Shown here piece after piece: positions 7,684-21,358 of a DNA stretch of 28,212 nt. The position numbers were made by a program, and so were the translations under genes. Source of the DNA: a virus. The stretch spans positions 1 to 28,212 of IMG/VR virus record IMGVR_UViG_3300030116_008157; one strand, written 5' to 3'. The notes below the pieces were generated by a model. The model searched no databases, was not told where the DNA came from, and worked only from the letters and a program-made list of their open reading frames with translations. Every line of letters begins with the position of its first letter. Position 1 is the first letter of the stretch.

Positions 7684-7704
7684 TTGTCTGTACATTAAAT
7701 TGTA
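7684..7704 (-). promoter_or_regulatory. Leftward promoter -10 and AGACAA leader box
   Basis: Minus strand: TACAAT (7704-7699) as -10 and ACAGACAA (7691-7684) in the leader of the left operon. The -35 region is poor, suggesting an activated or repressed promoter. Confidence 0.45.
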
Positions 7705-7712
7705 ATTGGAAG

Positions 7713-7741
7713 TTGCCAATCTCCCATAACATAACTATAGT
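7713..7741 (+). promoter_or_regulatory. Rightward promoter for the HTH/annealing operon
   Basis: TTGCCA (7713-7718), 17-bp spacer with a TCTCC element, TATAGT (7736-7741); the leader ACGCAAGA resembles the ACGCAAGACA leader at 21.3 kb. It overlaps the leftward promoter region, so one regulator could control both arms. Confidence 0.55.
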
Positions 7742-7777
7742 GGATAATACATATTACGCAAGAATAAAGGAGAGAAT

Positions 7778-7999
7778 ATGAAATCGAATCCTTGGTCAAT
7801 CGAGGAGTCACCGGTAGGTGTGCATGAAATTGCAGATCTACTTGGATGTTCACGACAATCAGTAAGTTCTTGGCAGGTGAGGAAACAATTTCCTGAGCCT
7901 GATGGAACTGTAGGTGGTGGCAAAGTTAGATTATGGAAAAGAGAAACTGTAATCAAATGGGCTAACGCTACAGGTCGTAACAAGAATGGAGCGATATAA
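7778..7999 (+). CDS. HTH DNA-binding regulator (AlpA/Xis-like)
   Basis: A 73-aa protein with a classic HTH: V-H-E-I-A-D-L-L-G-C-S-R-Q-S-V-S-S-W near residues 14-31, then F-P-E-P-D and a 'GGGKVRLWKRETVIKWA' wing, as in MerR/AlpA/excisionase-like small regulators. It has a good AAAGGAGAG ribosome site. Being first gene of the rightward operon at the divergent promoter region, it is the best visible candidate for a regulator of both arms, possibly also a ligand of the dispersed motifs further right (inference). Confidence 0.75.
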   Translation: MKSNPWSIEESPVGVHEIADLLGCSRQSVSSWQVRKQFPEPDGTVGGGKVRLWKRETVIKWANATGRNKNGAI

Positions 8000-8002
8000 A
8001 AA

Positions 8003-8911
8003 GTGTCAGTGCAAGATACTAATCTTGAATGGGCAGAAAACATGGATGTTGTCTTTGGCAAAAATGGTTGGAGACAAATTCCACATTATAAAATAGGAGA
8101 ATCGAGAGAGATGAAATCAGAACAAATAAATCCTGAGGATGTTGAAGTGGTTGTAGTCGATGAGCCAGATCTGGCTGAAATCGAAGTTGCACCGAGTGTG
8201 GAACTAGCAACAAATATCTTTGGAACTACAAATCCAAAAGACTTTGTAGCCAAATCACAAGAATATGCCTCAGCATTAGTAGAAGTAGTAGAGAATCAAA
8301 ATCTATTTGCTTTGATCCAAGGCAAGAAGTATGTAACTTTTGAAGGTTGGCAATTCTTAGGATCAATGTTACCTACTGCTATAACTCCACAAACAGAGTG
8401 GACTGTAGAAGTAAAAGATGAGAACACAGGAGAGGTATTAGGCTTTAAGACTCGTGTTGTTGCCAAAGATGTAAATGGTAATGAGCGTGGGGCAGCCGAA
8501 TCAGTCTGCATGTATTCCGAGAAAAATTGGAGAGGCAAAGATGCAAATCATCTTATGTCTATGGCGCAAACTCGTGCTAGCTCCAAAGCATTAAGAATGG
8601 CATTATCATCTATTGTTAAGTTGGCAGGATTTGAGCCAACACCAAAAGAGGAAATGGATGGTATCAATGCAGAAAACAGTTTCAATTCAAATAAAAAAGA
8701 ATTTAAGAAAACTATTCCAAATCCGGAGACAACTTCAGATACAGGCGAGAGACAAGCTACAGATAAGCAAGTCGCATTCCTAAAAAAATTAGTTATGCAA
8801 AAACCTGATCATGAAGTATCCCAGGATCCAAAAGTAATTGATGGATTGGCTAATGGTAATTTACCTTTTGAATTAGCAAAAGTTTCAATTGATCAGTTAT
8901 TGAACACTTAA
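8003..8911 (+). CDS. Single-strand-annealing-like recombination protein
   Basis: A 302-aa protein from a GTG at 8003 (GGAG 11 bases upstream); an ATG at 8111 behind AGGAGA is an alternative. The centre matches a family common in actinobacteria and their phages: 'KKYVTFEGWQFLGSML', 'ERGAAESVCM', then the signature M-A-Q-T-R-A-S-S-K-A-L-R-M-A-L with L-A-G-F-E-P-T-P. I associate it with Rad52/Sak-like annealing proteins. A C-terminal helical part after a Ser/Thr-rich linker ('DKQVAFLKKL') is also usual in the family. It fits an SSB-linked recombination role. Confidence 0.6.
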   Translation: MSVQDTNLEWAENMDVVFGKNGWRQIPHYKIGESREMKSEQINPEDVEVVVVDEPDLAEIEVAPSVELATNIFGTTNPKDFVAKSQEYASALVEVVENQNLFALIQGKKYVTFEGWQFLGSMLPTAITPQTEWTVEVKDENTGEVLGFKTRVVAKDVNGNERGAAESVCMYSEKNWRGKDANHLMSMAQTRASSKALRMALSSIVKLAGFEPTPKEEMDGINAENSFNSNKKEFKKTIPNPETTSDTGERQATDKQVAFLKKLVMQKPDHEVSQDPKVIDGLANGNLPFELAKVSIDQLLNT

Positions 8912-8928
8912 ATAGTAAACTACAGTAG

Positions 8929-9828
8929 ATGGCTTATATACCTGAACTTAAACTTGGGACAGAGGATACACTCGAAAGAGATAGAGATCTTAGAGTGCTT
9001 AGTTTAGGTGCAGGTGTACAGTCATCTACTGTTTTGTTTAAAATGTTACATGGCGAGATAGAGCCACCTGATGTAATAATATTTTCGGACACAGGCAACG
9101 AGCCTCAACAAGTGTACGAATGGTTAGATTATTTAAAAACACACATAGATAAATCCGGTATTCCTTTTCATATTGTCAGAAATGAACAAAACCTGGGCAA
9201 TATAGTCAAAGATTTTCAGGCTGAATCAGGTAGGCATTCACTATTACCTTTACATATAAGAAGAAATGATGATACCTTAGGTTTGGCTATGAGGACATGT
9301 ACCTCAGAATATAAAATAAAACCTTTACAAAAGTGGTTACGAGATTACTTTGATGTAACTTACTTGAGATCTAAACACATAGAAATGGTTATGGGCATAT
9401 CTTTTGATGAATTACAGAGAGTAAAGCAAGCACCAATAAAATGGCAAGTAAATTGTTATCCATTAGTAGAAAATGAAATAACAAGACAACAATGCAAAGA
9501 TTGGATGAAAGATCAAGGATATCCACCTCCACCAAGATCAGCTTGTATTATATGTCCTTTTCATGATGCTGAAGAGTGGCTACACATCAAAAATACAAGC
9601 CCTGAAGAATTTGAACAAGCAATTGAATTTGATGAGTGGTTAAGATCCCCAAATTCTACAAGTGTTGGTTTAGATAAATTTAAAGAAATTAATACAGAAT
9701 CTAATGCTTACCTTTATAGAGGTCGTGTACCTCTCAAATCTGTAGATCTGGAGGCAGCGGTAAAAGAAAAACACGATCATGCTTGGACACTTTTTGATGA
9801 TGAGTGCGAAGGCATGTGTGGTGTATGA
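8929..9828 (+). CDS. PP-loop ATPase, PAPS-reductase/DndC-like (paralogue 1)
   Basis: A 299-aa protein. PP-loop variant S-L-G-A-G-V-Q-S-S-T at 25-34, 'DTGNEP' after strand 2, then C124 in 'RTCTSEYKIKP', 'MGISFDE..R' and C206-x2-C209 (S-A-C-I-I-C-P-F). The Cys set could hold an Fe-S cluster. The superfamily activates substrates by adenylation for sulfur chemistry (PAPS reductase, DndC); the phage branch has no settled role. A second copy follows with a 4-base overlap and a DNA methyltransferase lies downstream, suggesting nucleic-acid modification. No clear ribosome site before the ATG. Confidence 0.8.
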   Translation: MAYIPELKLGTEDTLERDRDLRVLSLGAGVQSSTVLFKMLHGEIEPPDVIIFSDTGNEPQQVYEWLDYLKTHIDKSGIPFHIVRNEQNLGNIVKDFQAESGRHSLLPLHIRRNDDTLGLAMRTCTSEYKIKPLQKWLRDYFDVTYLRSKHIEMVMGISFDELQRVKQAPIKWQVNCYPLVENEITRQQCKDWMKDQGYPPPPRSACIICPFHDAEEWLHIKNTSPEEFEQAIEFDEWLRSPNSTSVGLDKFKEINTESNAYLYRGRVPLKSVDLEAAVKEKHDHAWTLFDDECEGMCGV

Positions 9829-11594: not shown

Positions 11595-11708
11595 GGGATT
11601 GAAAATGTCACTTAATGTTATAAAAAAAATATGGGATTGAAAATTTGCCTTAATATGGGATTGAAAATGAGTCATAAGGGAAAATGGGATTGAAAATGTC
11701 CTCTAATG
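11595..11708 (+). repeat. Four copies of the 23-bp intergenic motif
   Basis: GGGATTGAAAAT starts at 11595, 11633, 11657 and 11686, each followed by a variable pentamer and TTAATG/TAATG-like end. All are on the plus strand. Steps are 38, 24 and 29 bp, so this is not a regular array. Confidence 0.85.
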
Positions 11709-11754
11709 TCCAAAAAAATAAACCAGATCTGGAGTTTACCGGTGGCGATAGAAT

Positions 11755-11792
11755 AAAAAAAAGGCTCCAGGATCACCTAGAGCCTTTTTCCG
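11755..11792 (-). terminator. Bidirectional terminator
   Basis: AAGGCTC (11761-11767) pairs with GAGCCTT (11780-11786), with an A-run on the left and T-run on the right. It can end the leftward gene at 11806. Confidence 0.8.
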
Positions 11793-11805
11793 ACATGGAG
11801 GAAGT

Positions 11806-12129
11806 TCAAAACGCTTGAACTATCCAACCTTTAGGCACTACTGCCTTAGCCTCCAAATCGTAACCTTCAAAAGGTATTACAGAAGTCTGTTCTTGTAATT
11901 CTTCGATAGATTCCACGCTGTAATCATTTTTTAGATCCTCAAAATCGTTATATTCTGAGAAATCGCACCTGATCGCTATAGGATCCATCAATATATCTTG
12001 GCCTGATCCTTGGGAGATATCCTCCAGGTACCAATAAAGAGCGCTAGCGCCATCTCTACTAAAGCCATGATTTTCTTGTGCCATCGTATGCACAAAGCTT
12101 GATTCTTCTACAACATCAATAATTGCCAT
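11806..12129 (-). CDS. Conserved phage protein of unknown function (107 aa)
   Basis: I set the start at 12129, behind TTGGAGGAAAA; the longer frame to 12168 runs into promoter sequence. The pattern 'SRDGASALYWYLEDI', 'MDPIAIRCDFSEY', 'IEELQEQTSVI' and a C-terminal I-V-Q-A-F follows a widespread small phage/prophage family I know only as hypothetical. It stands alone as a transcription unit with its own promoter and terminator. Confidence 0.75.
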   Translation of the reverse strand: MAIIDVVEESSFVHTMAQENHGFSRDGASALYWYLEDISQGSGQDILMDPIAIRCDFSEYNDFEDLKNDYSVESIEELQEQTSVIPFEGYDLEAKAVVPKGWIVQAF

Positions 12130-12148
12130 TTTTTCCTCCAATTTTATA

Positions 12149-12191
12149 TTGTCTGTTATAACCATCATAACACTTTACCGGAGATATGCAA
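12149..12191 (-). promoter_or_regulatory. Accessory-zone promoter with CCGGTAAAG box
   Basis: Minus strand: TTGCAT (12191-12186), 4-bp gap, CCGGTAAAG (12181-12173), TATGAT (12169-12164; 16-bp spacer), ACAGACAA leader box (12156-12149), then GGAGG. Confidence 0.75.
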
Positions 12192-12222
12192 ACAAAATAA
12201 AATAATATCTTGGATCTAAACT

Positions 12223-12268
12223 CGGATTGAAAATGCATCATAATTGGGATTGAAAATGCGCCATAATG
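12223..12268 (+). repeat. Two head-to-tail copies of the 23-bp motif
   Basis: CGGATTGAAAAT at 12223 and GGGATTGAAAAT at 12246, exactly 23 bp apart. This abutting pair defines the unit length. Confidence 0.85.
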
Positions 12269-12291
12269 CACAAAAAAATAAATAAAAATAC

Positions 12292-12320
12292 AAAAATAAA
12301 AGGGAGCATAAGCTCCCTTC
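12292..12320 (-). terminator. Terminator for the Lys-rich microprotein unit
   Basis: AAGGGAGC (12300-12307), loop ATAA, GCTCCCTT (12312-12319); T-rich on the minus strand side. Confidence 0.8.
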
Positions 12321-12335
12321 TACTCGTTCCTTCCA

Positions 12336-12345
12336 GATCTGGAAG
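12336..12345. repeat. CCAGATCTGG-type palindrome
   Basis: The CCAGATCTGG palindrome extended to TTCCAGATCTGGAA lies just past the microprotein stop. The same decamer recurs at about 11518, 11724, 13752, 15308, 20490 and 22113. Confidence 0.6.
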
Positions 12346-12346
12346 G

Positions 12347-12442
12347 TTAACCCTTCTTTTTCTTTTTAGCCTTCTCCTTCTTGTTATGCTCGTAGGCTCT
12401 CATGTTCATCTCTAACAAGATCTCATTAATCACCCTAAACAT
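12347..12442 (-). CDS. Lys-rich microprotein (31 aa), family copy 1
   Basis: ATG at 12442 overlaps the end of the 139-aa gene. The product begins M-F-R-V-I-N-E-I-L-L and has N-M-R-A-Y-E-H-N-K before a basic tail with K-K-K-K-K. It aligns over its whole length with the 29-aa product at 20655-20744, which is the main evidence that this tiny frame is real. Amphipathic helix plus polybasic tail suggests nucleic-acid or membrane contact; function unknown. Confidence 0.65.
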   Translation of the reverse strand: MFRVINEILLEMNMRAYEHNKKEKAKKKKKG

Positions 12443-12854
12443 TAGACTTCACCTGGTCATATTCTTTTTCCGCTGCCAAAAAGGCCTCCACGATCTCCTG
12501 ATTTAGATCATCAGGATCCCAAAAGATATCATCATATAGACCAACCTGGACATACTTCTCATAGTATTCTTCTCCAACCGGTCTGATCTCATACCAATTA
12601 TTACTATATACTTCTAGATCCTCATGCTCATCGGCATGAACATAATCTGCATCAGTTTTGATCTCTGTGATCTCACTTAGACAGTAATATATAGCCCCTT
12701 GGTAACCGATCTTTACTTCTCCATAGGGAGAGATCTCCCATTGTCTACCCTGGTACTCTACGACCTTGAGTGGAGTCCACTCTGTTGATCTATAGAATAA
12801 AGAGTCACGCCTGTTAGCCTCTGTTCTATCGCTAACTACTTTGTAATCGCTCAT
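12435..12854 (-). CDS. Acidic protein of unknown function (139 aa)
   Basis: Mixed beta-rich and acidic protein; the middle segment 'GRQWEISPYGEVKIGYQGAIYY' looks like a small beta sheet and the C-terminus is helical. ATG at 12854 overlaps the stop of the zinc-ribbon gene upstream (TCATGA), with AAGGAG before it. No family recognised. Confidence 0.65.
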   Translation of the reverse strand: MSDYKVVSDRTEANRRDSLFYRSTEWTPLKVVEYQGRQWEISPYGEVKIGYQGAIYYCLSEITEIKTDADYVHADEHEDLEVYSNNWYEIRPVGEEYYEKYVQVGLYDDIFWDPDDLNQEIVEAFLAAEKEYDQVKSNV

Positions 12855-13012
12855 GAATCACTCCTTAATTTATTACTTCTTTTTCTTTTTACACCTCTCC
12901 AGGATCCTACCTTTTTAAATAGATTCCAACAAGAAGTGCATTTACCCTCGCCTATAAAATATGTGGAGAGATCGTTCTCATCTCCACATATCATACAACT
13001 GTAATCGATCAT
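12851..13012 (-). CDS. Zinc-ribbon miniprotein with basic tail (53 aa)
   Basis: C-M-I-C at 6-9 and C-T-S-C at 25-28 form a four-Cys zinc site, followed by a strongly basic tail (K-R-K-R-S-N-K-L-R). It starts by ATGA overlap on the upstream gene's stop at 13009 and ends on the next start. A zinc ribbon with a basic tail is suited to nucleic-acid binding, e.g. RNA polymerase or ribosome contact, but that is inference. Confidence 0.65.
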   Translation of the reverse strand: MIDYSCMICGDENDLSTYFIGEGKCTSCWNLFKKVGSWRGVKRKRSNKLRSDS

Positions 13013-13215
13013 AATAACTTCTCCAGGTTAGGAGAGTTAGTATTGATTGCGAGAATAAAATCTGCATACTGCGCTTCATTAAGCTTTTCCTTAATGAGTC
13101 GATCAAGTATTTGAATTTCTTTACCCACTCCCATCACAGCATCTGCAATAGTAGTATCACAGTCTAACTGTCGTGCTTTGATCCTAAGAACTCTTAGGAC
13201 TTCATCTCTTTCCAT
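13009..13215 (-). CDS. Helical protein of unknown function (68 aa)
   Basis: All-helical, no Trp, with heptad-like Leu/Ile spacing. It has a strong AGGAGG site before the ATG at 13215 and an accessory-zone promoter upstream. First gene of a four-gene unit ending in the Lys-rich microprotein. Family not recognised. Confidence 0.68.
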   Translation of the reverse strand: MERDEVLRVLRIKARQLDCDTTIADAVMGVGKEIQILDRLIKEKLNEAQYADFILAINTNSPNLEKLL

Positions 13216-13232
13216 TTATATCCTCCTATAAA

Positions 13233-13266
13233 TTGTCTGTCTAATTAGTTTACCGGAGATTTGCAG
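13233..13266 (-). promoter_or_regulatory. Leftward accessory promoter overlapping a rightward one
   Basis: Minus strand: CTGCAA (13266-13261), CCGGTAAAC (13256-13248), ACAGACAA (13240-13233). The -10 (around TAATTA) is poorly spaced. The TTGCA hexamer is shared back to back with the rightward promoter. Confidence 0.55.
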
Positions 13267-13303
13267 TAAATCAAATTTATAGTACAATATTTATATCAGA
13301 CAA
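13261..13303 (+). promoter_or_regulatory. Rightward accessory promoter
   Basis: TTGCAG (13261-13266), 16-bp spacer, TACAAT (13283-13288), CAGACAA box (13297-13303), then GAGGAGG before the ATG at 13317. It shares its -35 hexamer with the opposite promoter. Confidence 0.7.
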
Positions 13304-13316
13304 AGAGGAGGAAAAA

Positions 13317-13703
13317 ATGTCAGATAAAGAAAAGATTGTCCACGAGGAGGATAATCTAAAAATTACTGCAACTCGTGATCCGGAGTTGACTGCACACTAT
13401 AACACAGGATACTGTTCTATAGCGTGGCAACAACTTAAAGGGAGAACTATAAAAGACATTTATTATGAAAATGTTTATTTTAAGCGAGATGATAAGTGGG
13501 ACTTAGATAACACTAGTGTTGTGATCTCACTTGAGTCAGTAGATTACTCTCCGATTGAAACACTAATTGTTCAATCTGATCCGGAGGGAAATCCTGGAGG
13601 ATACCTTGCACAGATGACTTCTGAGGGATCTTACAGAAATAAAACTGAGGGAGATCGACACCTTAAAAATTTAGGTATGGATCCAAAAGAATACGCTATG
13701 TAG
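13317..13703 (+). CDS. Protein of unknown function (128 aa)
   Basis: One of only two plus-strand genes within the accessory zone. Strong GAGGAGG site, own promoter and terminator. It has alternating strands ('CSIAWQQLKGRTIKDIYYENVYF', 'TSVVISLESVDYSPIETLIVQ'), i.e. a probable small beta-rich domain, and charged ends. No known motif. Confidence 0.7.
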   Translation: MSDKEKIVHEEDNLKITATRDPELTAHYNTGYCSIAWQQLKGRTIKDIYYENVYFKRDDKWDLDNTSVVISLESVDYSPIETLIVQSDPEGNPGGYLAQMTSEGSYRNKTEGDRHLKNLGMDPKEYAM

Positions 13704-13721
13704 TTCTCGATCAGAATTAAA

Positions 13722-13750
13722 AAGAGGAGGCTTTGGCCTCCTTTTTTTTG
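13722..13750 (+). terminator. Terminator after the 128-aa gene
   Basis: AGGAGG-CTTTGG-CCTCCT (13725-13742) followed by eight Ts. Confidence 0.85.
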
Positions 13751-13758
13751 TCCAGATC

Positions 13759-13819
13759 TGGATTGAAAATTTGCAGTAATGAATTAAAGAAAAAAAGAGA
13801 TTGAAAATTTCACTTAATC
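13759..13819 (+). repeat. Two copies of the 23-bp motif between convergent terminators
   Basis: TGGATTGAAAAT at 13759 (directly abutting CCAGATCTGG) and GAGATTGAAAAT at 13797. Here no leftward promoter follows, so the motif is not simply a promoter element. Confidence 0.85.
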
Positions 13820-13826
13820 AAATAAA

Positions 13827-13858
13827 AAAAAAGATGGGATCCGGAGATCCCACCCTTT
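13827..13858 (-). terminator. Terminator of the leftward unit ending at 13877
   Basis: TGGGATC (13835-13841) pairs with GATCCCA (13846-13852); T-run on the minus strand from the adjoining A-run. Confidence 0.8.
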
Positions 13859-13876
13859 TCACATAGACACAGAGGA

Positions 13877-14314
13877 TTACATCTCTTGCATCTCGTTACC
13901 TTTATTTACTATGATTTTTTCTCCCATTGGTCGATCATGGTGGGACACCAAGATCTCGAATTGATCCGGTAGTCCGGACATTGTTAATTGAGAAGTTATA
14001 TCTGTATTATATGGAAAAATAAGATTCCTTAAATTTTCAGCATTAACTTCTTGTAGTGGATCCTTTAGTCCTCGAACTGAATTATCCCAACCACCTAACC
14101 ATGCCGGTATAAACATTGTCTCCCAACCATTCTCCTGGAGACTCCTGGAGATCCATTCAATTGTCTCTAAAATGATTTCCCATTCAAAAACAGAACAGTT
14201 CTCGCAGTAGTCCTCGATCTCAAGACATGCACTACATTCGATCTCATCTTTATATTCATGAAAATTAAAATCATGATTTGATAAATTGATCGGAACATCT
14301 TTTAAATGTATCAT
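13877..14314 (-). CDS. Cys-cluster protein of unknown function (145 aa)
   Basis: ATG at 14314, preceded by GGGAGGGG and overlapping the previous stop (ATGA); a longer frame from 14326 has no such support. A cluster E-C-S-A-C ... D-Y-C-E-N-C near residues 30-42 is a compact likely zinc site. The remainder is mixed alpha/beta with a Trp-Gly-Gly-Trp loop. No family recognised. Confidence 0.65.
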   Translation of the reverse strand: MIHLKDVPINLSNHDFNFHEYKDEIECSACLEIEDYCENCSVFEWEIILETIEWISRSLQENGWETMFIPAWLGGWDNSVRGLKDPLQEVNAENLRNLIFPYNTDITSQLTMSGLPDQFEILVSHHDRPMGEKIIVNKGNEMQEM

Positions 14315-14702: not shown

Positions 14703-14848
14703 TTTTCCTCCTCAGAAATAATTTCTACCCATATATTGTTTCTAGCGCAGATTTCTAATAAGTCATCTATGACATTGTATTCATAGTTCAAGTTGGAGGT
14801 TTTTGTATTAATAACCTCCAACACTTCTCCATTTTCTCTAATCGCCAT
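14699..14848 (-). CDS. Small protein of unknown function (49 aa)
   Basis: I use the ATG at 14848 (GGAG upstream, overlapping the preceding gene's stop) rather than 14884. Acidic, helical, ending in S-E-E-E-K because the next ribosome site is encoded there. No family recognised. Confidence 0.55.
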   Translation of the reverse strand: MAIRENGEVLEVINTKTSNLNYEYNVIDDLLEICARNNIWVEIISEEEK

Positions 14849-15245
14849 AAGTATCTCCATGAACTTCAATAGATATATCGCCACTAAAGTTTAAGAACAG
14901 TCCTAAAGGATATTTCCCCTTAGAATAATCTGTTGGATCAAAGACTCCATAAACTCCATAGTATCCATCTCCATCATAAGTTCTACTAGCGAACAATAGT
15001 CCATCAGAGAGACTCCCATAAGGAGTTTCATCTAAAGTTCTCTCACAACATTTTGTGTAAAGGTTTTTTTCCTCTACTTCAAGTGTTGGATCATTTTTAG
15101 AGATGAATTCTCCCTTAGTAGTCTCATCATAATTCCATTTTCCATTACCAACAGAAAAGAAGTCCTCTCCTATATAGCATGGATCAACAATAGTAATTTG
15201 CCCACTATCAACTGCAAAATTACCTATATGTTTAACTTCATACAT
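14838..15245 (-). CDS. Conserved phage protein with DSGQ...DPCYI motif (135 aa)
   Basis: Start at 15245 behind TTGGAGGTAAA. The N-terminal signature 'AVDSGQITIVDPCYIG' and a later 'TYDGDGYYGVYG' match a beta-rich family found across phages and bacteria, which I know only as hypothetical. First gene of a five-gene unit with promoter at 15.3 kb. Cys is present in the DPCY motif; no enzymatic claim can be made. Confidence 0.72.
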   Translation of the reverse strand: MYEVKHIGNFAVDSGQITIVDPCYIGEDFFSVGNGKWNYDETTKGEFISKNDPTLEVEEKNLYTKCCERTLDETPYGSLSDGLLFASRTYDGDGYYGVYGVFDPTDYSKGKYPLGLFLNFSGDISIEVHGDTYGD

Positions 15246-15258
15246 TTTTACCTCCAAT

Positions 15259-15305
15259 TTGTCTTATGTATATAACCATATTAGTGCTTTACCGGAGATT
15301 TGCAA
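15259..15305 (-). promoter_or_regulatory. Accessory-zone promoter with CCGGTAAAG box
   Basis: Minus strand: TTGCAA (15305-15300), CCGGTAAAG (15295-15287), TAATAT (15283-15278; 16-bp spacer), ACATAAGACAA (15269-15259). CCAGATCTGG lies directly upstream. Confidence 0.78.
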
Positions 15306-15340
15306 GTCCAGATCTGGAACATTGAGGATCTAAAAAAAAC

Positions 15341-15363
15341 GAGATTGAAAATTTCCATTAATG
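15341..15363 (+). repeat. 23-bp intergenic motif
   Basis: GAGATTGAAAAT then TTCCATTAATG; between a leftward promoter and the terminator of the next unit. Confidence 0.85.
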
Positions 15364-15426
15364 TGCAAAAATAAAAACGATCTAACGACTCTCCAGGAAA
15401 ATCAACATGAAAAGCTTTTACCAAAC

Positions 15427-15456
15427 AAAAAAAAGAGAGGAGTCGAAACTCCTCTC
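15427..15456 (-). terminator. Terminator of the unit ending at 15477
   Basis: GAGAGGAGT-CGAA-ACTCCTCTC (15435-15456) plus a T-run on the minus strand. The preceding TTTTACCAAACAAAAAAAA is repeated near 19.1 kb. Confidence 0.85.
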
Positions 15457-15476
15457 TCTCTCGGTTGGTTAGTAAA

Positions 15477-16508
15477 TTATATATGACAATCTACCACTAC
15501 GCCTATGTGAGTATCCTCATACTTTTTGAGTATGTTAGATACTAGGGACTCTTGGTCTTGTTCTTGTTGTTCTCTCTCCTCATCACTCAACATGTCTAAA
15601 GATGAGATTCCAAACATACCCATTTCTCCTGCTTGTATCCAACCCTCCTCCTCAAATAAAAATGAGAATATAGGATTCTTATCTACCTGCACAGGTTTCA
15701 AGAGTTCCTCTTTTGTGTAGTATTCATCTACTATGCCTTTACCATTTTCATCAGTAATAGTTTCGCCATTGTCATCCTCAACAAATGATTTCACGATAGA
15801 ATTTTCTACTACATTTTTTTCTATGAACTCCTCATAGTTATCTGTAAATGGAGAATTGAGTTTGAAATATGGAAGTGTTTGAACAAAAGGAATCTCCTCT
15901 TTATCAAACAATTCTGATAATTCTATGAGTCCAGAATTCCCCATTTCTCTCCAACGCCCTCCGACTACATACCAATCATACATGGCATTTGGATTAGTCC
16001 AATAACGCTCCCAACAGTTTCCATTTACATCCCAACTCCAATCCATTTCATCATCATTGTCGCCAAACACCTGCCATGTCCAACGCATGTGATAGGAATT
16101 GTTTAGTGAGAATTTGAACTCTTGAACTTTGTCCATGATTTTAGTTAGCTCTCTACTTTTAACTTTTAGAGAATCTCCCTTATACCAACGCTCAAGTTTT
16201 TCATATTGACTGTTTAAGTGGGACATCAAATCTCCCATTTCAGTTCTATATGGTTTCCCACTATCTTTTAATTTCTTTACTTGCAAATACATCTTTAAAA
16301 AATCACTTGCAGATGAATTTAGGTATTCTTGCTTTTCTACTTCTAGTCCCTCGTAGTAAGGCTCCATTAATTCATCCAAGTTCTTTACGATATATCGTTC
16401 TTGATATTGAAGTTTCAAATCTCCCATATCATCATCTCCAACACCAAAGAGAGGATTTTGGACTACATCCTCTCTAGGCATTACTGCTAAACAAACAAAA
16501 TGACTCAT
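15477..16508 (-). CDS. Conserved phage protein with YDWYVVGGRW motif (343 aa)
   Basis: The largest gene of the accessory zone. It starts M-S-H-F-V-C-L-A-V and contains 'LDELMEPYYEG' near residue 45 and N-P-N-A-M-Y-D-W-Y-V-V-G-G-R-W near 175. These mark a family seen in many tailed phages, always as a hypothetical protein with an aromatic core. A helical middle (90-135) and an acidic C-terminal region follow. It overlaps the upstream 67-aa gene by ATGA with AGGAGGG. Enzymatic role unknown. Confidence 0.75.
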   Translation of the reverse strand: MSHFVCLAVMPREDVVQNPLFGVGDDDMGDLKLQYQERYIVKNLDELMEPYYEGLEVEKQEYLNSSASDFLKMYLQVKKLKDSGKPYRTEMGDLMSHLNSQYEKLERWYKGDSLKVKSRELTKIMDKVQEFKFSLNNSYHMRWTWQVFGDNDDEMDWSWDVNGNCWERYWTNPNAMYDWYVVGGRWREMGNSGLIELSELFDKEEIPFVQTLPYFKLNSPFTDNYEEFIEKNVVENSIVKSFVEDDNGETITDENGKGIVDEYYTKEELLKPVQVDKNPIFSFLFEEEGWIQAGEMGMFGISSLDMLSDEEREQQEQDQESLVSNILKKYEDTHIGVVVDCHI

Positions 16509-16708
16509 TTGCCCTCCTTTATTATTCTCTCTTGGTCTATGGTTTTAAAACCACTATCAGCTTGTTCTACTGTTGTGTCTATTACTTCTGTATCGTAGAA
16601 TTCATGTCCCTCGTTATTATCATCAAAGATTTCCAACGCATGTTCTTTTGAATCTGCCTCTACTAAATAGAAGTCATAAACTTTTTGAGTTATCCAGAAA
16701 TTCGGCAT
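16505..16708 (-). CDS. Small alpha/beta miniprotein (67 aa)
   Basis: Strand ('KVYDFYLVEA'), 'DSKEHALEIFDDN' helix, strand; the 'Y-x-V-x-A-x-S-x-E-x-A' plan of tiny phage proteins. TAATG overlap with the upstream gene and ATGA with the downstream one. Confidence 0.65.
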   Translation of the reverse strand: MPNFWITQKVYDFYLVEADSKEHALEIFDDNNEGHEFYDTEVIDTTVEQADSGFKTIDQERIIKEGK

Positions 16709-16860
16709 TACGAATTCCTATCCAACTCATATTGCTCAAAGATATCCCAACCTTGTCGTTCATATCCCTCTAGCAATAACAAGATACTATTCTTGTGTTT
16801 TCTGTGGACTGTTGAGTCCTCTAATATATTTCTGAATATATAAATGATATCCTCATCCAT
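16708..16860 (-). CDS. Small protein of unknown function (50 aa)
   Basis: A 50-aa ORF, ATG at 16860 behind GGAGGAGGAATA, TAATG overlap at both ends. Helical with a Leu run (S-I-L-L-L-L-E) and a basic patch. Not recognised. Confidence 0.6.
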   Translation of the reverse strand: MDEDIIYIFRNILEDSTVHRKHKNSILLLLEGYERQGWDIFEQYELDRNS

Positions 16861-17003
16861 TATTCCTCCTCCATTGTCTTAGTCGATTCGCAACACTCGG
16901 TGCAGTAAACTTCTCCTGCACCCTCAATTACAGAATCATCATTTAGATTTACCCATTGGTCTGTATAGACTTCAGAGGATTTACAATAGACACATACTTC
17001 CAT
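16860..17003 (-). CDS. Zinc-ribbon miniprotein (47 aa)
   Basis: C-V-Y-C at 4-7 and C-T-E-C-C at 34-38 give a zinc ribbon. It begins on the TAATG of the upstream gene with GGAGGAGGAATA and ends M-E-E-E. Function unknown. Confidence 0.65.
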   Translation of the reverse strand: MEVCVYCKSSEVYTDQWVNLNDDSVIEGAGEVYCTECCESTKTMEEE

Positions 17004-17332
17004 TATTCCTCCTCCGATTCATAACCCATGTCTTTGTCCCACTCTTGCAATTGCTCATCACTCAATAAGTCTAAAGCAACAGTAAGTCCATTTCGTAGAT
17101 ACTTGTATTCAGTTGAATCAACTTGCACATCAAATCTCAAATCTCCTAACCAACTGAGTATTTCGTTTTGTATGCTTTTTGTTAATTCATCATCAGTAGG
17201 TGTTATATAATAACCCTCCTCTGATTCTGAGTTAGACAACCAATCATCCTCATGGGCATGAGTAAACCCATTTCCTAACTGATTTTTATCTACGCTTATG
17301 CGAACTACAAATGTCTTTTCATAGTTTGCCAT
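17003..17332 (-). CDS. Protein of unknown function (109 aa)
   Basis: Start at 17332 behind GAGGAGGAAAT; the longer frame to 17479 translates the promoter. N-terminal strand ('KTFVVRISV'), a flexible acidic region, then helices; ends E-S-E-E-E. First gene of the 17.3-15.5 kb unit. No family recognised. Confidence 0.65.
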   Translation of the reverse strand: MANYEKTFVVRISVDKNQLGNGFTHAHEDDWLSNSESEEGYYITPTDDELTKSIQNEILSWLGDLRFDVQVDSTEYKYLRNGLTVALDLLSDEQLQEWDKDMGYESEEE

Positions 17333-17345
17333 ATTTCCTCCTCGT

Positions 17346-17388
17346 TTGTCTGTTAAGTATATTCTAACTACTTTACAGGATATTACAA
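17346..17388 (-). promoter_or_regulatory. Accessory-zone promoter (variant CCTGTAAAG box)
   Basis: Minus strand: TTGTAA (17388-17383), CCTGTAAAG (17379-17371), TAGAAT (17366-17361; 16-bp spacer), ACAGACAA (17353-17346). Confidence 0.7.
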
Positions 17389-17424
17389 TTATGAAATATG
17401 AAAATCCTGGAGTCGGCCAAAATC

Positions 17425-17447
17425 GAGATTGAAAATCAGCATTAATG
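17425..17447 (+). repeat. 23-bp intergenic motif
   Basis: GAGATTGAAAAT then CAGCATTAATG, followed by CACAAAAAAATAA as in several other copies. Confidence 0.85.
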
Positions 17448-17523
17448 CACAAAAAAATAAAAAAACTTACGAATTTCACAAAAACTCTTACAGTCTAATT
17501 TATATAAGCAACAAGGAGAAAAA

Positions 17524-17694
17524 ATGCCACCGAGAGAAACTGAACATACATGCAACAATTTTCATAACTGCTACATGTGTTCTGAACTAATACTCCCAAT
17601 GGAAAAACATTTTATGGTTTGGAGAATTTGGTTTGCGAGACATATGGAGTTTATTTGTGTCAGTTGTATTGGAGATGTAAAGGAGAGATCATGA
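17524..17694 (+). CDS. Cys-rich zinc-finger-like miniprotein (56 aa)
   Basis: Plus-strand ORF from ATG 17524 behind AAGGAGAAAA, with TATAAG as a possible -10 upstream. Cys at 10, 16, 19, 44 and 47 (C-Y-M-C and C-V-S-C pairs) plus nearby His suggest metal binding. The centre is rich in Trp/Phe/Met. It stands alone against the surrounding minus-strand genes. Function unknown. Confidence 0.6.
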   Translation: MPPRETEHTCNNFHNCYMCSELILPMEKHFMVWRIWFARHMEFICVSCIGDVKERS

Positions 17695-17703
17695 GCGATA
17701 GAT

Positions 17704-17735
17704 AAAAAAAGAGGGAGATTTAGATCTCCCTCTCT
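17704..17735 (-). terminator. Terminator between convergent small genes
   Basis: GAGGGAGAT-TTAG-ATCTCCCTC (17711-17732) with a minus-strand T-run; it ends the unit whose last gene stops at 17761. Confidence 0.8.
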
Positions 17736-17760
17736 CATTTCATAGTCTCAAGATCCTGAA

Positions 17761-17862
17761 TTAATCATCATCTCGATCAAGCAACGAGGACAACACATAA
17801 TATAAATGTGTCATCATTATGCCAAACATAAATACTATGACTAAGCCCTGCCAACTTAACAC
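17761..17862 (-). CDS. Single-TM micropeptide (33 aa), GTG start
   Basis: GTG at 17862 overlaps the stop of the zinc-ribbon gene, with GAGGAGGAGAA just upstream. Residues 5-20 (Q-G-L-V-I-V-F-M-F-G-I-M-M) form one membrane-spanning helix and the tail is D-R-D-D-D. Possible roles include a holin-like or membrane-regulator peptide; nothing in the sequence decides. Confidence 0.5.
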   Translation of the reverse strand: MLSWQGLVIVFMFGIMMTHLYYVLSSLLDRDDD

Positions 17863-18044
17863 TTCTCCTCCTCTTGTTCTATTATGTCAACCTTGATATC
17901 AAATCCACAGTCGCCACACCAATACTCATCTAAAAAGTCAGATCCATCTGACACGCAATCATCATTAAGATCAAACCACATAATTACTTTTTGTTGTACA
18001 AGTGTGGATCCACACTCACGACATTTATAAATTAATTGACTCAT
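17856..18044 (-). CDS. Zinc-ribbon protein (62 aa)
   Basis: C-R-E-C at 8-11 and C-G-D-C (about 43-46) form a zinc ribbon with W-F-D-L between. Start at 18044 behind GGGAGAA, ATGA overlap with the upstream gene. Ends E-E-E-K-C, another end shaped by the embedded ribosome site. Confidence 0.65.
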   Translation of the reverse strand: MSQLIYKCRECGSTLVQQKVIMWFDLNDDCVSDGSDFLDEYWCGDCGFDIKVDIIEQEEEKC

Positions 18045-18295
18045 CTTTGATTCTCCCACATTGAAACAAGTTCATGTAAGTATTCAAACCGGTGATGAAA
18101 ATACAAATAGACTTTACCTCTCCATGTATTACAAATCCAACAGGAGGGATCTCTCTCCTCATATTCTGTATAGATTTTGTCATCATCAACAGTAGTGATC
18201 CATGTCCCATAGATACCATGCCAACAAAAGTATGATTCAATTTTACAATGGATCGTTTCAACGATTCTGTAAATTAATTTTGGTTTGGTAATCAA
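18041..18295 (-). CDS. Protein of unknown function (84 aa), TTG start
   Basis: TTG at 18295 lies 4 bases after AGGAGGG and overlaps the previous stop. The product is aromatic-rich with Cys-Trp-Ile-Cys, and beta-like. A second long frame over the same DNA (18025-18261) lacks ribosome-site support and is a shadow. Confidence 0.58.
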   Translation of the reverse strand: MITKPKLIYRIVETIHCKIESYFCWHGIYGTWITTVDDDKIYTEYEERDPSCWICNTWRGKVYLYFHHRFEYLHELVSMWENQR

Positions 18296-18609
18296 TTCAC
18301 CCTCCTTATCATCATATTTTCTTTTACTGCATACAAGTGCATGTATGGATCAGAGTCCTGAAATTTTCTAATTACAGTAATTAGATTTGGTAGGTATTCA
18401 ATGAAACCATACTCTTTTAATTCGTTATCGTATCCATATAAACCCCAACTACCATTTTCCTCTAACCAATTAGCATCAAATTCTTCTAATTGATTAACGA
18501 GATCAAATTGATTTTTTAGTTCTGTATAGTTGTAAAGAGAAAATGTATCCTCCCACTTACAGAGGAATAGCTCCTCTGTTGGTTTAAATGATCTTGTGAA
18601 TTCACTCAT
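18292..18609 (-). CDS. Protein of unknown function (105 aa)
   Basis: TAATG overlap with the upstream gene. Acidic and aromatic; 'NGSWGLYGYDNELKEYGFIEYL' may be a beta hairpin. Ends in N-M-M-I-R-R-V-N. No family recognised. Confidence 0.62.
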   Translation of the reverse strand: MSEFTRSFKPTEELFLCKWEDTFSLYNYTELKNQFDLVNQLEEFDANWLEENGSWGLYGYDNELKEYGFIEYLPNLITVIRKFQDSDPYMHLYAVKENMMIRRVN

Positions 18610-18929
18610 TAATACATCTCCAAAGGATATTTCAAAGGTAGCATAATTAAGAATTCTACACCCTCCTCAAAGGTGGCATAGAATCCATACTGTGTATGTC
18701 CATTCCAATATCCAAAATAGCACTCTGTGTCTAATGTGTATTGGTCTAGTTTGTATTCAATTTCTGTATCAACTGCGTTAATCAAAACGCCTTCAATATT
18801 AAAGTGAACACAACCTCCACCGGAATAATAAATCCCCACACCTTTTTGGTCTGCGAATTTAAGGAACTTAGGATCAGCTTTTGACATATCAAAAACATCT
18901 CCTGTTAGTCTTATATTTTTTTCTTGCAC
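18609..18929 (-). CDS. Protein of unknown function (106 aa), GTG start
   Basis: GTG at 18929 behind GAGGAGGAATT. The segment 'GVGIYYSGGGCVHFNIEGVLI' looks like beta strands around a Gly-rich turn. First gene of the 18.9-17.8 kb unit. No family recognised. Confidence 0.62.
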   Translation of the reverse strand: MQEKNIRLTGDVFDMSKADPKFLKFADQKGVGIYYSGGGCVHFNIEGVLINAVDTEIEYKLDQYTLDTECYFGYWNGHTQYGFYATFEEGVEFLIMLPLKYPLEMY

Positions 18930-18941
18930 AATTCCTCCTCG

Positions 18942-18987
18942 TGTCTTGTGTATATATTAATTGTATCACTTTACTTCAGATTTGCAA
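18942..18987 (-). promoter_or_regulatory. Accessory-zone promoter
   Basis: Minus strand: TTGCAA (18987-18982), degenerate box GAAGTAAAG (18977-18969), TACAAT (18965-18960; 16-bp spacer), ACACAAGACA (18951-18942). Confidence 0.72.
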
Positions 18988-19012
18988 AACTTATATATGG
19001 ATCAATAAGAAC

Positions 19013-19035
19013 GAGATTGAAAATGTGCATTAATG
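19013..19035 (+). repeat. 23-bp intergenic motif
   Basis: GAGATTGAAAAT then GTGCATTAATG. Confidence 0.85.
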
Positions 19036-19039
19036 AATT

Positions 19040-19133
19040 AAAAAAAAGAGAGAGATCATGATCTCCAAGTTTCGAGATCTTGGCGAAAAAAAAAATTTTA
19101 CCAAACAAAAAAAAGAGGGGCATTTCTGCCCCT
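19040..19133 (-). terminator. Tandem terminators after the 109-aa gene
   Basis: Leftward, AGGGGCA-TTTC-TGCCCCT (19116-19133) with a T-run comes first; then a 14-bp perfect palindrome GAGATCATGATCTC (19052-19065) and a second T-run. Confidence 0.75.
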
Positions 19134-19158
19134 CCTCTTTATTAGCACACGCAGGGAG

Positions 19159-19488
19159 TTAAGAATTTAATTGACTCTCTCGCCAAACACCAACGCCACC
19201 GGTTAAATATTTTCTCGCAACTTCTACGCCAACGAGATTTATAAACGCAGTTTGGAACGCTCTCGGCTCAAATGTATCCTCTTTTGAAATCTGTGCCATG
19301 TCTCTTAATGTGCTTAAATGTTTTGCAGTCGTTTGACTCCAAACACTTTGGCAAATTAAAAATGTTTCGCTCAAATTGTGATACATTCCAATTACAGTAT
19401 CATAACTGTAAAAAATAATTGCTCCCCCCAAAATGTCTAAATCAACAATTTGTGAGAATGTGCCTGTGCTATTTAATTTAGTTTTCAA
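19159..19488 (-). CDS. Protein of unknown function (109 aa), TTG start
   Basis: TTG at 19488 behind TAGGAGGATAAA. Helical domain with 'SQTTAKHLSTLRDMAQIS' and a Gly-rich C-terminus. It is the only gene of its unit, with its own promoter, motif copy and terminator. No family recognised. Confidence 0.62.
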   Translation of the reverse strand: MKTKLNSTGTFSQIVDLDILGGAIIFYSYDTVIGMYHNLSETFLICQSVWSQTTAKHLSTLRDMAQISKEDTFEPRAFQTAFINLVGVEVARKYLTGGVGVWRESQLNS

Positions 19489-19505
19489 TTTATCCTCCTA
19501 GATAA

Positions 19506-19553
19506 TTGTCTTATGTATTAATTAATTATCTCATACATTTCAAAAGTTTGCAA
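19506..19553 (-). promoter_or_regulatory. Accessory-zone promoter
   Basis: Minus strand: TTGCAA (19553-19548), GATAAT (19530-19525; 17-bp spacer), ACATAAGACAA (19516-19506). A CCGG lies upstream of, rather than inside, the spacer. Confidence 0.6.
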
Positions 19554-19575
19554 ATGTCCGGTAATGTTTAAAATC

Positions 19576-19598
19576 GAGATTGAAAATTTGCGTTAATG
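19576..19598 (+). repeat. 23-bp intergenic motif
   Basis: GAGATTGAAAAT then TTGCGTTAATG and CAA, extending the right half towards a TTGC/GCAA palindrome. Confidence 0.85.
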
Positions 19599-19619
19599 CA
19601 ACAAAAAAAAAGAAAAAAT

Positions 19620-19769
19620 CTAAAAATCAAACTCCAGATCCTCGCTCCCACAATCCCAACAACGAGGGGAAATCTCATCAATGAGTTCCCCCCCATTAAG
19701 TTGTTCCGAGTTTGCAAAAACCCAAACTGCTTGGACAACATCTCTTGACTTGCACTTATTACAAGTCAT
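19620..19769 (-). CDS. Zinc-ribbon miniprotein (49 aa)
   Basis: C-N-K-C at 3-6 and C-W-D-C (about 37-40) form a zinc ribbon. ATG at 19769 overlaps the upstream gene with GTGAGGAC before it; the longer frame to 19847 lies in another gene. It ends D-L-E-F-D-F. Confidence 0.62.
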   Translation of the reverse strand: MTCNKCKSRDVVQAVWVFANSEQLNGGELIDEISPRCWDCGSEDLEFDF

Positions 19770-20145
19770 TGTCCTCACCACATACAATTTTATAATATTT
19801 GTTATCTTGAATATGAACAAAAGGTATTGCATGGCCTTTTGAGTCATAAAGGAAGTCTAATTCGCTACCCTCAGTCCACTCCGTATATGAACAAATATCC
19901 AATTGCCATTCATACTCATAAGAATTGTCATCTAACTTGTCCCAACTAGCTTGAAACTGTTTCCAGGTTAAACCAGATCCATTGTTATTCCAATCCTCTA
20001 AAGTAGTAAAGACTTTTTTTCTGCCCCAATACTTAGAGATACAATCATCACCACAAAAGTAATATTCTCCTCCATGCATGATATAACCTCTTGACATGCC
20101 ACCTTCACATGAATCACATTGTCTGTAATATACTAAAGTTGCCAT
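19759..20145 (-). CDS. Zinc-finger-type protein (128 aa)
   Basis: Start at 20145 behind CTGGAGGACTA. N-terminal C-D-S-C (10-13) and C-G-D-D-C (about 31-35) form a treble-clef/zinc-ribbon site with Tyr-Tyr-Phe before the second pair. The C-terminal two thirds are acidic and Trp-rich. TAATG overlap upstream. Function unknown. Confidence 0.65.
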   Translation of the reverse strand: MATLVYYRQCDSCEGGMSRGYIMHGGEYYFCGDDCISKYWGRKKVFTTLEDWNNNGSGLTWKQFQASWDKLDDNSYEYEWQLDICSYTEWTEGSELDFLYDSKGHAIPFVHIQDNKYYKIVCGEDNDL

Positions 20146-20375
20146 TAGTCCTCCAGATCCCAACCAATTAAAAAGATTTGACTAGCAACAGAAGTTGCCC
20201 CCAAATCTGCCTCAGCTAGTATTTCATAATATTTGCGTTCATTGTCTGAACACTTACTTAAAGCTTTTTTGATGTTCTCATCATCAATATCGCTTTCCTC
20301 AAAGAGTCCCAACTCAAACCAAACAGTTGCTAAATGTTCAGCTAAGTTTAGAATCTCCCTCACGCTTAAAGACAT
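20145..20375 (-). CDS. Helical acidic protein (76 aa)
   Basis: The second of two adjacent ATGs (20375) is better spaced from AAGGAGG. All-helical; 'NLAEHLATVWFELGLFEE' is a likely amphipathic helix. First gene of its unit. No family recognised. Confidence 0.62.
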   Translation of the reverse strand: MSLSVREILNLAEHLATVWFELGLFEESDIDDENIKKALSKCSDNERKYYEILAEADLGATSVASQIFLIGWDLED

Positions 20376-20393
20376 CATTCCTCCTTGTCCGTG

Positions 20394-20433
20394 TGTCTTA
20401 CTTTTATTATGATCTGGAATAAAATTTTTGCAA
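20394..20433 (-). promoter_or_regulatory. Accessory-zone promoter without CCGG box
   Basis: Minus strand: TTGCAA (20433-20428), CATAAT (20411-20406; 16-bp spacer), TAAGACA (20400-20394). Confidence 0.62.
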
Positions 20434-20527
20434 CTTAAATAAAAGATTTCTGTTTGGTAAAACGATTTTAGATCCTAGAAACTTTTTATCCAGATCTGGC
20501 GTTCCAGATCTACCAAACCAAAAAAAC

Positions 20528-20550
20528 GAGATTGAAAATTTGCACCAAAG
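20528..20550 (+). repeat. Degenerate 23-bp intergenic motif
   Basis: GAGATTGAAAATTTGCA is intact but the TTAATG end is replaced. It is the last, rightmost copy. CCAGATCTGG and a half-copy lie just left of it (about 20490-20515). Confidence 0.7.
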
Positions 20551-20611
20551 CAAGCGATTTGGAGCGAGCTTGAGAACATGCAAGGCGAGAACTGATGAGA
20601 ACTTTTGGACA

Positions 20612-20642
20612 TAAAAAAAAGAGGGAGGATAAATCCTCCCTC
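20612..20642 (-). terminator. Terminator after microprotein copy 2
   Basis: GAGGGAGGAT-AA-ATCCTCCCTC (20621-20642) with a T-run on the minus strand. Confidence 0.85.
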
Positions 20643-20654
20643 TCTTGTCTTTTG

Positions 20655-20744
20655 TTATCTTTTCTTTTTCTTTTTAGACTGTTTATTTTTTTCGTAAGCA
20701 ATCATATTTAAATCAAGAATAACTTTATTTAAAGCCGAGAACAT
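20655..20744 (-). CDS. Lys-rich microprotein (29 aa), family copy 2
   Basis: ATG at 20744 behind AAAGGAGTC. M-F-S-A-L-N-K-V-I-L-D-L-N-M-I-A-Y-E-K-N-K then K-K-K-K-K-R parallels the 31-aa product at 12347-12442, including M-F, N-M-x-A-Y-E-x-N-K and the polylysine end. It is the last gene of its unit, as copy 1 is. Conservation at the protein level argues that it is translated. Confidence 0.65.
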   Translation of the reverse strand: MFSALNKVILDLNMIAYEKNKQSKKKKKR

Positions 20745-20901
20745 TTTTGACTCCTTTAATTATCTTTTCTCCGAGTATCCAGGCACCCCACACATGAAGT
20801 GAAGTCCAAAGAATAAAAAGGAGAAGTGCGATTTCAAATCGCACTCCTGCCAAAAATAATTGTTCTATCTGAACTCCAAAATATGAATCTATGAAATCCA
20901 T
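20725..20901 (-). CDS. Single-TM small protein (58 aa)
   Basis: ATG at 20901, TAATG overlap, AGGTTAAATA upstream. Residues about 22-45 (F-E-I-A-L-L-L-F-I-L-W-T-S-L) form one transmembrane helix. The tail is basic and overlaps the microprotein start. A perfect 21-bp palindrome (20825-20845) lies in its coding sequence. Possibly a holin-like or membrane-regulatory protein; not recognised. Confidence 0.6.
   Translation of the reverse strand: MDFIDSYFGVQIEQLFLAGVRFEIALLLFILWTSLHVWGAWILGEKIIKGVKNVLGFK
20825..20845. repeat. Perfect palindrome inside a gene (10-bp arms)
   Basis: AGTGCGATTT, one central base, AAATCGCACT. It encodes part of the 58-aa membrane protein, so it is a coding hairpin or an operator-like site; no T-run follows. 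Confidence 0.7.
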
Positions 20902-21290
20902 TATTTAACCTCCAAAATTTCATTAGAGTTTAATCTCTCATAATCATATTCAGAATTGACTAGAACTTTTCCTACAACTTTTCCTGCTGAGTTTCCTCTT
21001 AGGAGTTGAGAACGAATCCATATATAGTCTTTAATATCTACATTTTTGTAGACATAGACTCCACCTTGTCTAATGCTTAAATCTTTTCTCATGCTTGAGT
21101 TAAAGATAACAACGACATCACAAAGTAATCTATCAAGATTATTTCTCATGACTCCTACATTTTGAATAGTTGTAGAATCTATTCTCTCTAATACCTCAAT
21201 AAAGGCAACATCATCTGTTGCTTTATAGACTTCGTTAAAAGTCTTTTTGATATTAGCTTTTACTTTTACTTTAGTTTTACCTCTTGACAT
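20901..21290 (-). CDS. Basic N-terminus protein, KTSC-like C-terminus (129 aa)
   Basis: Start at 21290 behind GAGGAGGAAAAA. The N-terminus is very basic (S-R-G-K-T-K-V-K-V-K-A). The second half, 'MRKDLSIRQGGVYVYKNVDIKDYIWIRSQLLRGNSAGKVV', is laid out like the KTSC domain (small beta domain found in phages, sometimes fused to nucleases and tRNA synthetases). That assignment is tentative. First gene of the rightmost leftward unit. Confidence 0.6.
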   Translation of the reverse strand: MSRGKTKVKVKANIKKTFNEVYKATDDVAFIEVLERIDSTTIQNVGVMRNNLDRLLCDVVVIFNSSMRKDLSIRQGGVYVYKNVDIKDYIWIRSQLLRGNSAGKVVGKVLVNSEYDYERLNSNEILEVK

Positions 21291-21306
21291 TTTTTCCTCC
21301 TCTAAA

Positions 21307-21358
21307 TGTCTTGCGTATACTAACCCCATTATATATAGACTTTACCGGATATGTGCAA
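21307..21358 (-). promoter_or_regulatory. Accessory-zone promoter with CCGGTAAAG box
   Basis: Minus strand: TTGCAC (21358-21353), CCGGTAAAG (21348-21340), TATATAAT (21335-21328), ACGCAAGACA (21316-21307), then GAGGAGG. Confidence 0.78.

Follow-up and report, generated by a model that had tools for sequence, protein, structure and literature searches.

A repeated promoter-leader cassette at the small-gene units of an uncultured phage, with counterparts in five relatives

Phage phiC31 carries conserved inverted repeats at its early promoters, and the promoter-terminator cassettes of T4-type phages that are called PeSL were reportedly the subject of work by Arbiol in 2010 and Comeau in 2014. The sequence analysed here, referred to as the window, is an entire IMG/VR virus record (IMGVR_UViG_3300030116_008157; 28,212 bases, 35% GC), and our subject is a cassette of promoter and leader that recurs upstream of its small-gene units. 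Related arrangements are known from several sources. PeSL cassettes, as far as they are outlined via PMC4503421, consist of a promoter and a stem-loop terminator. Cluster A mycobacteriophages have a stoperator/operator system (PMC9283540), and cluster K mycobacteriophages have the SAS/ESAS elements (PMC3203893, PMC11373665, PMC12699233), the role of the cluster K leader box being described as unclear (PMC11373665).

Each non-structural unit of the window is preceded by a predicted sigma-70-like promoter (several of them weak), a shared AGACA box and a strong Shine-Dalgarno sequence (SD). Most units also possess an operator-like element overlapping the -35 hexamer and the spacer, and a terminator-like hairpin at the unit end. 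In five relatives the predicted layout is conserved, but the box has other letters and the element is another one, which is palindromic. On balance we favour the view that these cassettes serve a single phage regulon as its early promoters, each probably combining a sigma-70-type promoter, an operator and a 5'-leader tag.

A first-pass annotation, made from the letters of the window, had listed ten leaders with an AGACA box between promoter and SD, and a sequence check found the box at every one of these places: on the minus strand at 7689-7685, 12154-12150, 13238-13234, 15264-15260, 17351-17347, 18946-18942, 19511-19507, 20398-20394 and 21311-21307 (5' end first), and on the plus strand at 13298-13302. 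The looser copy reported near 7755 is also present and reads CGCAAGAATAAAGGAG. Enrichment in the window was measured against 200 dinucleotide shuffles. AGACA alone is not enriched (74 copies, 71.8 expected); AGACA followed by an SD and a start codon occurs 11 times, with 0.51 expected and a maximum of 3 in any shuffle, two of the 11 cases (AGACA at 16879 and 17033) being coding sequence within an operon. A relaxed promoter followed by AGACA and an SD is found 7 times, compared with 0.01 in the shuffles, so that the cassette survives the comparison with shuffled sequence that the first-pass annotation had put forward as a refuting test. An unbiased k-mer search of the window leaders recovers AGACA. 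The leaders are about 20-35 nt long, with the box directly 5' of the SD. Folding of the window leaders revealed no conserved hairpin, and their comparison with Rfam gave no family match. A start-codon hairpin was also considered and dropped, as no more than three of the ten leaders (13317, 20378 and 21293) allow AGACA to pair with a start region reading ATGTC.

The promoters themselves are more varied than first described. The claim that most of them read TTGCAA, a 16-bp spacer and TANAAT was overstated: the parts recur (exact TTGCAA at four promoters, 15305, 18987, 19553 and 20433; a 16-bp spacer in five; exact TANAAT in three), but the full exact combination occurs only once, at 18987 on the minus strand. 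The -10 hexamers are poor in the promoters preceding boxes 13238 and 7689. The placement of CCGGTAAAG (or its -AC form) exactly 4 bp from the -35 holds at 12191, 13266, 15305 and 21358, while the other copies are degenerate or flipped; the degenerate element GAAGTAAAG at 18987 likewise lies 4 bp from the -35. The gapped pattern TTGCAA-N4-CCGGTAAAG has 5 matches, including a flipped copy at 19548, compared with 0.23 expected in shuffles. When 6-mers were tested in the window promoters alone, none reached significance, and the operator claim therefore rests on the gapped patterns and on the relatives. An exact search for the element in IMG/VR returned coding-sequence matches only, which were chance-like in appearance.

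Individual cassettes, on the minus strand unless stated otherwise, are as follows. The promoter-leader of unit 12126-11806 (12150..12191) reads TTGCAT-ATCTCCGGTAAAGTGT-TATGAT and that of unit 15245-13877 (15260..15305) TTGCAA-ATCTCCGGTAAAGCAC-TAATAT. The leader of unit 13215-12435 (13234..13266) has CTGCAA-ATCT-CCGGTAAAC with TTAGAC as its -10, and its element copy, 13249-13266, serves two divergent units, being present in flipped form in the plus-strand promoter of unit 13317-13703 (13249..13302; TTTGCA-17-TACAAT). Degenerate elements occur in the promoter-leaders of unit 17332-15477 (17347..17388; TTGTAA-16-TAGAAT, element CCTGTAAAG) and unit 18929-17856 (18942..18987; TTGCAA-16-TACAAT, element GAAGTAAAG). 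For unit 19488-19159 (19507..19565; TTGCAA-17-GATAAT) the element is flipped, lying on the plus strand at 19548-19565 (TTGCAAATGTCCGGTAAT); in this unit and in plus-strand unit 13317 the reversed element is positioned upstream of the -35 and overlaps it. The promoter-leader of unit 20378-19620 (20394..20433) reads TTGCAA-16-CATAAT without the CCGG element, and that of unit 21293-20725 (21307..21358) reads TTGCAC-ATAT-CCGGTAAAG with a long spacer and TATAAT/TATATA as its -10. The leader of the leftward replication-type operon (7685..7719; first gene 7658-7461) has a weak promoter. On the plus strand, the promoter-leader at 7713..7777 comprises the half element TTGCCAATCTCC followed by TATAGT and the looser box leader near 7755; it precedes the gene for a 73-aa helix-turn-helix (HTH) protein.

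At the DNA level, megablast of the window against 50,697 phage records gave no match, and relatives were obtained by other means. The gene at 22655-23866, used as a query, picked up three relatives that cover the right flank only; G010 was obtained by a pattern search with the 23-bp motif discussed below, the three long records G011, G012 and G013 through an alignment of the terminase small subunit, and G025 by a search with the gene at 8111-8911. A small-gene query (11806-12126) obtained no relative. The layout comparison covered six phages, namely the window and the five IMG/VR relatives G010, G011, G012, G013 and G025, with their unit-head leaders aligned on the box. The box is AGTAAT in G010 and G012, AAGTAT in G011 and GTAT-type in G013 and G025, and it typically starts 6-7 nt past the -10, at the predicted transcription start or mRNA 5' end. 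Unbiased leader k-mer counts gave AGTAAT for G010 and G012, and AAGTAT for G011. The box is commoner at unit heads than at inner genes in the window (Fisher p 0.010), G010 (0.0014), G012 (0.00012), G011 (0.0037) and G013 (0.0041), these tests using patterns that were picked after the leaders had been read. Box identity is 0.74-0.92 within a genome and 0.40-0.67 between genomes, a difference of 0.24, compared with 0.06 or less in label permutations.

The relatives also differ in the DNA element. Of 44 promoters in the relatives, 13 have an imperfect palindrome, TGCA-N6-10-WTGC, that covers the -35 and the spacer (0.69 in shuffles, maximum 4); none of the 10 window promoters searched for it has one. 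A single palindrome is common to divergent unit heads in G010 (5247-/5352+) and in G012 (13052-/13152+). Many promoters carry the box without a DNA element; operator and leader box are separable. These comparisons bear out the replicated promoter-leader layout that had been proposed for the window, and likewise the idea of an operator-like element within the promoter, given that the relatives carry another, palindromic element at the same place. Such substitution is the behaviour expected of an operator, and the DNA element probably acts as one.

Homologous units show that the boxes change together within a phage. The heads 13317, 15245, 18929 and 21293 all have homologues in relatives, with AGACA here and AGTA/GTAT-type boxes there, so that each homologous head carries the box of its own genome. 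In G010 and G012 the 13317 homologue adjoins the 18929 homologue divergently; in the window these two heads are 5 kb apart, each paired with other units. This fits modular movement of units together with a genome-wide regulatory wording. AGTATACGCAAGA is present both in the window leader at 21311 (AGTATACGCAAGACA) and in the leader of the G012 HTH gene, which hints that AGACA may derive from an older leader.

The candidate regulator is the 73-aa protein encoded at 7778..7999 on the plus strand, which is 60-73% conserved in four relatives. It is predicted to be a winged-helix protein (HTH_17/MerR-like fold) with weak similarity to the MerR family: the best fold-search hits were MerR-family chains (E 0.0098), and the Pfam HTH_17 score of the window protein is 19.7 bits, below the 27-bit cut-off, with two homologues above it. 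With two HTH families tested in the relatives, this protein is the sole HTH_17 match in every record that has one. The records, which may be incomplete, gave no matches to HTH_3 and integrase families, and a classical lysogeny switch is thus not visible in them. The half element TTGCCAATCTCC sits in the HTH gene's own promoter, which would fit autoregulation.

With respect to the host, genes for WhiB, a regulator of actinobacteria, were found in G003, G011, G012 and G013; their presence in four relatives points to an actinobacterial host. The nearest HTH matches are to Gordonia, Brevibacterium and Rhodococcus phages. A terminase search in bacterial genomes found no prophage, and the host assignment consequently depends on WhiB, the actinophage-like HTH protein and base composition. 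Candidatus Actinomarinales have about 32.5% GC and their WhiB-bearing phages 33.6-36.5% GC (PMC7771536), and Candidatus Actinomarinales is a plausible host; the phage probably infects very small actinobacteria of the ocean.

In the regulon that we favour, the cassette promoters would be transcribed by host RNA polymerase at an early stage of infection. The element would be bound by a DNA-binding protein of the phage, possibly the 73-aa winged-helix protein, which would block or tune initiation at all units together. The leader box, as the first transcribed nucleotides, would mark the 5' end of the mRNA and so make initiation or translation efficient. Recombination between shared borders and leaders may swap units or reverse them, and the letters within one genome may be kept uniform by recombination or by selection. 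Several observations weigh against this scheme. AGACA floats in the window, 7-13 nt after the -10, compared with the locked box of the relatives. The window element, an asymmetric one, is found in either orientation and is missing at boxes 20398 and 7689. The HTH recognition helix shows no clean covariation with element type; that of G025 resembles the window's, yet the G025 element is of the palindromic type. G013 and G025, each taken alone, fail the 5-mer leader test, and unit heads and -10 positions were picked by eye. More speculatively, the box may be a phage-specific 5'-end code on early mRNAs that is read by a dedicated phage factor, the regulon-wide switch of box and operator between relatives creating a private early-gene channel in a shared host; we regard this extension as unlikely.

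In the window the distance of AGACA from both -10 and SD varies, which suits an RNA signal better than a part of the promoter, and the box is present in promoters both with and without the DNA element. It is possible, although we are doubtful, that the box is an RNA-level tag through which a phage or host RNA-binding protein, or a small RNA, promotes or silences the translation or decay of early mRNAs, with the DNA element as a separate matter. The SAS boxes of cluster K, presumed active at translation initiation (PMC11373665), would be a precedent; against such a tag, in the relatives the box keeps a fixed position relative to the promoter, at the predicted +1, the leaders have no conserved structure on folding and no candidate RNA-binding protein was identified. 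The first-pass annotation had suggested post-transcriptional control; with the relatives' box at the predicted start, a role in transcription initiation may fit equally well. That locked distance from the -10, and the AG near +1/+2 with which the box begins in all six phages, would also suit a box that is initially transcribed sequence only, preferred by the host RNA polymerase when it selects a start site and escapes from the promoter, no dedicated factor being involved. We treat this as a tentative alternative: the remainder of the box differs between phages while being uniform within each, the distance of AGACA from the predicted start varies in the window, and a polymerase preference needs no genome-specific wording unless the hosts differ. 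Recent copying of a few units, without common regulation, could produce uniformity as well, and short stretches are indeed common to unit borders (18942-19049 and 19507-19613, for example, are 72% identical). The downstream proteins are unrelated within the genome, however, their homologues in relatives have another box, and the box is conserved where adjacent bases are not, making recent duplication improbable. Finally, a terminator per unit and a shared leader box would suit antitermination, which the first-pass annotation had suggested: a nut-like leader would allow read-through of the unit terminators. Given the shortness of the leaders, the box directly before the SD, and the lack of a conserved hairpin or Rfam match noted above, we consider this highly improbable.

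The units are bordered by further repeated sequences. A 23-bp motif (GATTGAAAATNNGNNTTAATG) has 13 copies in the window, all on the plus strand (11597, 11635, 11659, 11688, 12225, 12248, 13761, 13799, 15343, 17427, 19015, 19578 and 20530; span 11597..20550), compared with 0.37 expected, and G010 carries it 14 times, again on one strand. The first-pass annotation had joined this motif to the cassette. Its strand is fixed whatever the unit direction, and it is also found between convergent terminators (window 13761-13819; G010 6735-6815), so that it is a mark of unit borders and does not belong to the promoter. The spacing of paired copies is mostly 54 bp in G010 and G012; in the window and in G025 it is often 38 bp. 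Across the window, L026 (3774-13088), G012, G011, G013 and G025, a motif of 21-23 bp is almost confined to one strand, and may be a replication, recombination or packaging signal. Terminator-like sites number 27 in the window, compared with 7.9 in shuffles. Minus-strand hairpins follow units 12126-11806 (11756..11791), 13215-12435 (12294..12325), 15245-13877 (13827..13860), 17332-15477 (15429..15462), 18929-17856 (17707..17736), 19488-19159 (19109..19140) and 21293-20725 (20617..20646). One terminator per unit, as had been claimed, is thus correct for most units but not for 19620-20378, where no hairpin was found.

HK97-like capsid matches are to small siphovirus-type phages. No tRNA genes were found in the 28,212-base window. 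A leftward block from about 7.6 to 1.0 kb holds replication-type genes (ParB-like, SSB, replication initiation), and a rightward block from 7.8 to 11.5 kb encodes the HTH protein, a PAPS-reductase-like protein and a DNA methyltransferase. Small unknown genes with few family matches, arranged in units mainly on the minus strand, occupy 11.8-21.3 kb, and the right flank carries the terminase small subunit. Protein identity among these phages is about 50-90% in the flanks, whereas small-unit proteins are 27-35% identical or unmatched, identifying the small-gene region as the variable part. Two tandem genes, at 8929-9828 and 9825-10658, share 65% DNA identity across 257 bases, and the first of them has a match to a PAPS-reductase family of phages. 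The gene at 22655-23866, beside that of the terminase small subunit, encodes an AIPR-family protein (abortive-infection related) that is 83-89% conserved in three relatives. A pentamer-like tract, (TAGAG/TAGAA)n, at 26049-26110 lies upstream of the gene at 26115 and is kept in relatives (L027 at about 756-830, G012, G011 and G003); it is possibly a late-side promoter or regulatory tract. Window positions 1-43 are an exact inverted copy of 11467-11509, possibly a contig-end assembly artefact, or a real repeat.

Set against the systems described at the outset, the cassette shares parts with each. As in phiC31, operators appear to be distributed over many early promoters, with terminators between units. 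The boxB-like hairpin of a lambda-type nut leader was not found in the window leaders, which also gave no Rfam match. Like cluster A stoperators, the element is a short asymmetric site with many copies spread over the genome, which in the stoperator system serve one regulator. A stoperator, however, is oriented with transcription, lies within as well as between genes, and halts elongation when a two-domain repressor binds it; the present element is in promoters only and in both orientations relative to the unit, and no two-domain repressor was found. With the PeSL cassettes, as partly outlined in the source above, the window shares by sequence layout a predicted early promoter and a stem-loop terminator bordering small variable genes, and an apparent link to module shuffling. 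The present phages appear to be of a different phage type and have a genome-specific leader box and a spacer operator, neither of which, to our knowledge, is a feature of PeSL.

The closest likeness is to the SAS/ESAS elements of cluster K. In both cases a short box stands just upstream of many non-structural gene starts, repeat wording differs between related phages (in cluster K, between subclusters), and the hosts are actinobacteria, in the present case probably. About half of the SAS boxes have an upstream element with -35 and -10 hexamers 17-18 bp apart and imperfect inverted repeats. The ESAS inverted repeat, 15-17 bp around SigA-like -35 and -10 hexamers, is longer than the relatives' palindrome, which is confined to the fraction of promoters given above. 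The cluster K SAS is GGGATAGGAGCCC and overlaps the SD, unlike the AGACA or AGTA-type box near the transcription start. Its consensus (two mismatches or fewer, upstream of starts) is absent from the leaders of all six phages, which when read directly consist of an AGACA or AGTA-type box and a purine-rich SD. The present units also have terminators and a one-strand border motif, and there is no sequence similarity to cluster K. The cassette appears to work like the SAS/ESAS pair but, lacking the SAS sequence, does not belong to that family. Annotation of the many unknown small genes in these phages can use the cassettes as marks of promoters and gene starts, and homologous units that carry one of two box types and one of two operator types provide a natural experiment on leader-box function. 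Previous knowledge of distributed promoter-plus-leader cassettes came mainly from mycobacteriophages in culture; the present marine phages are a separate, uncultured group with a similar layout, in which box and operator evolve genome-wide in step.

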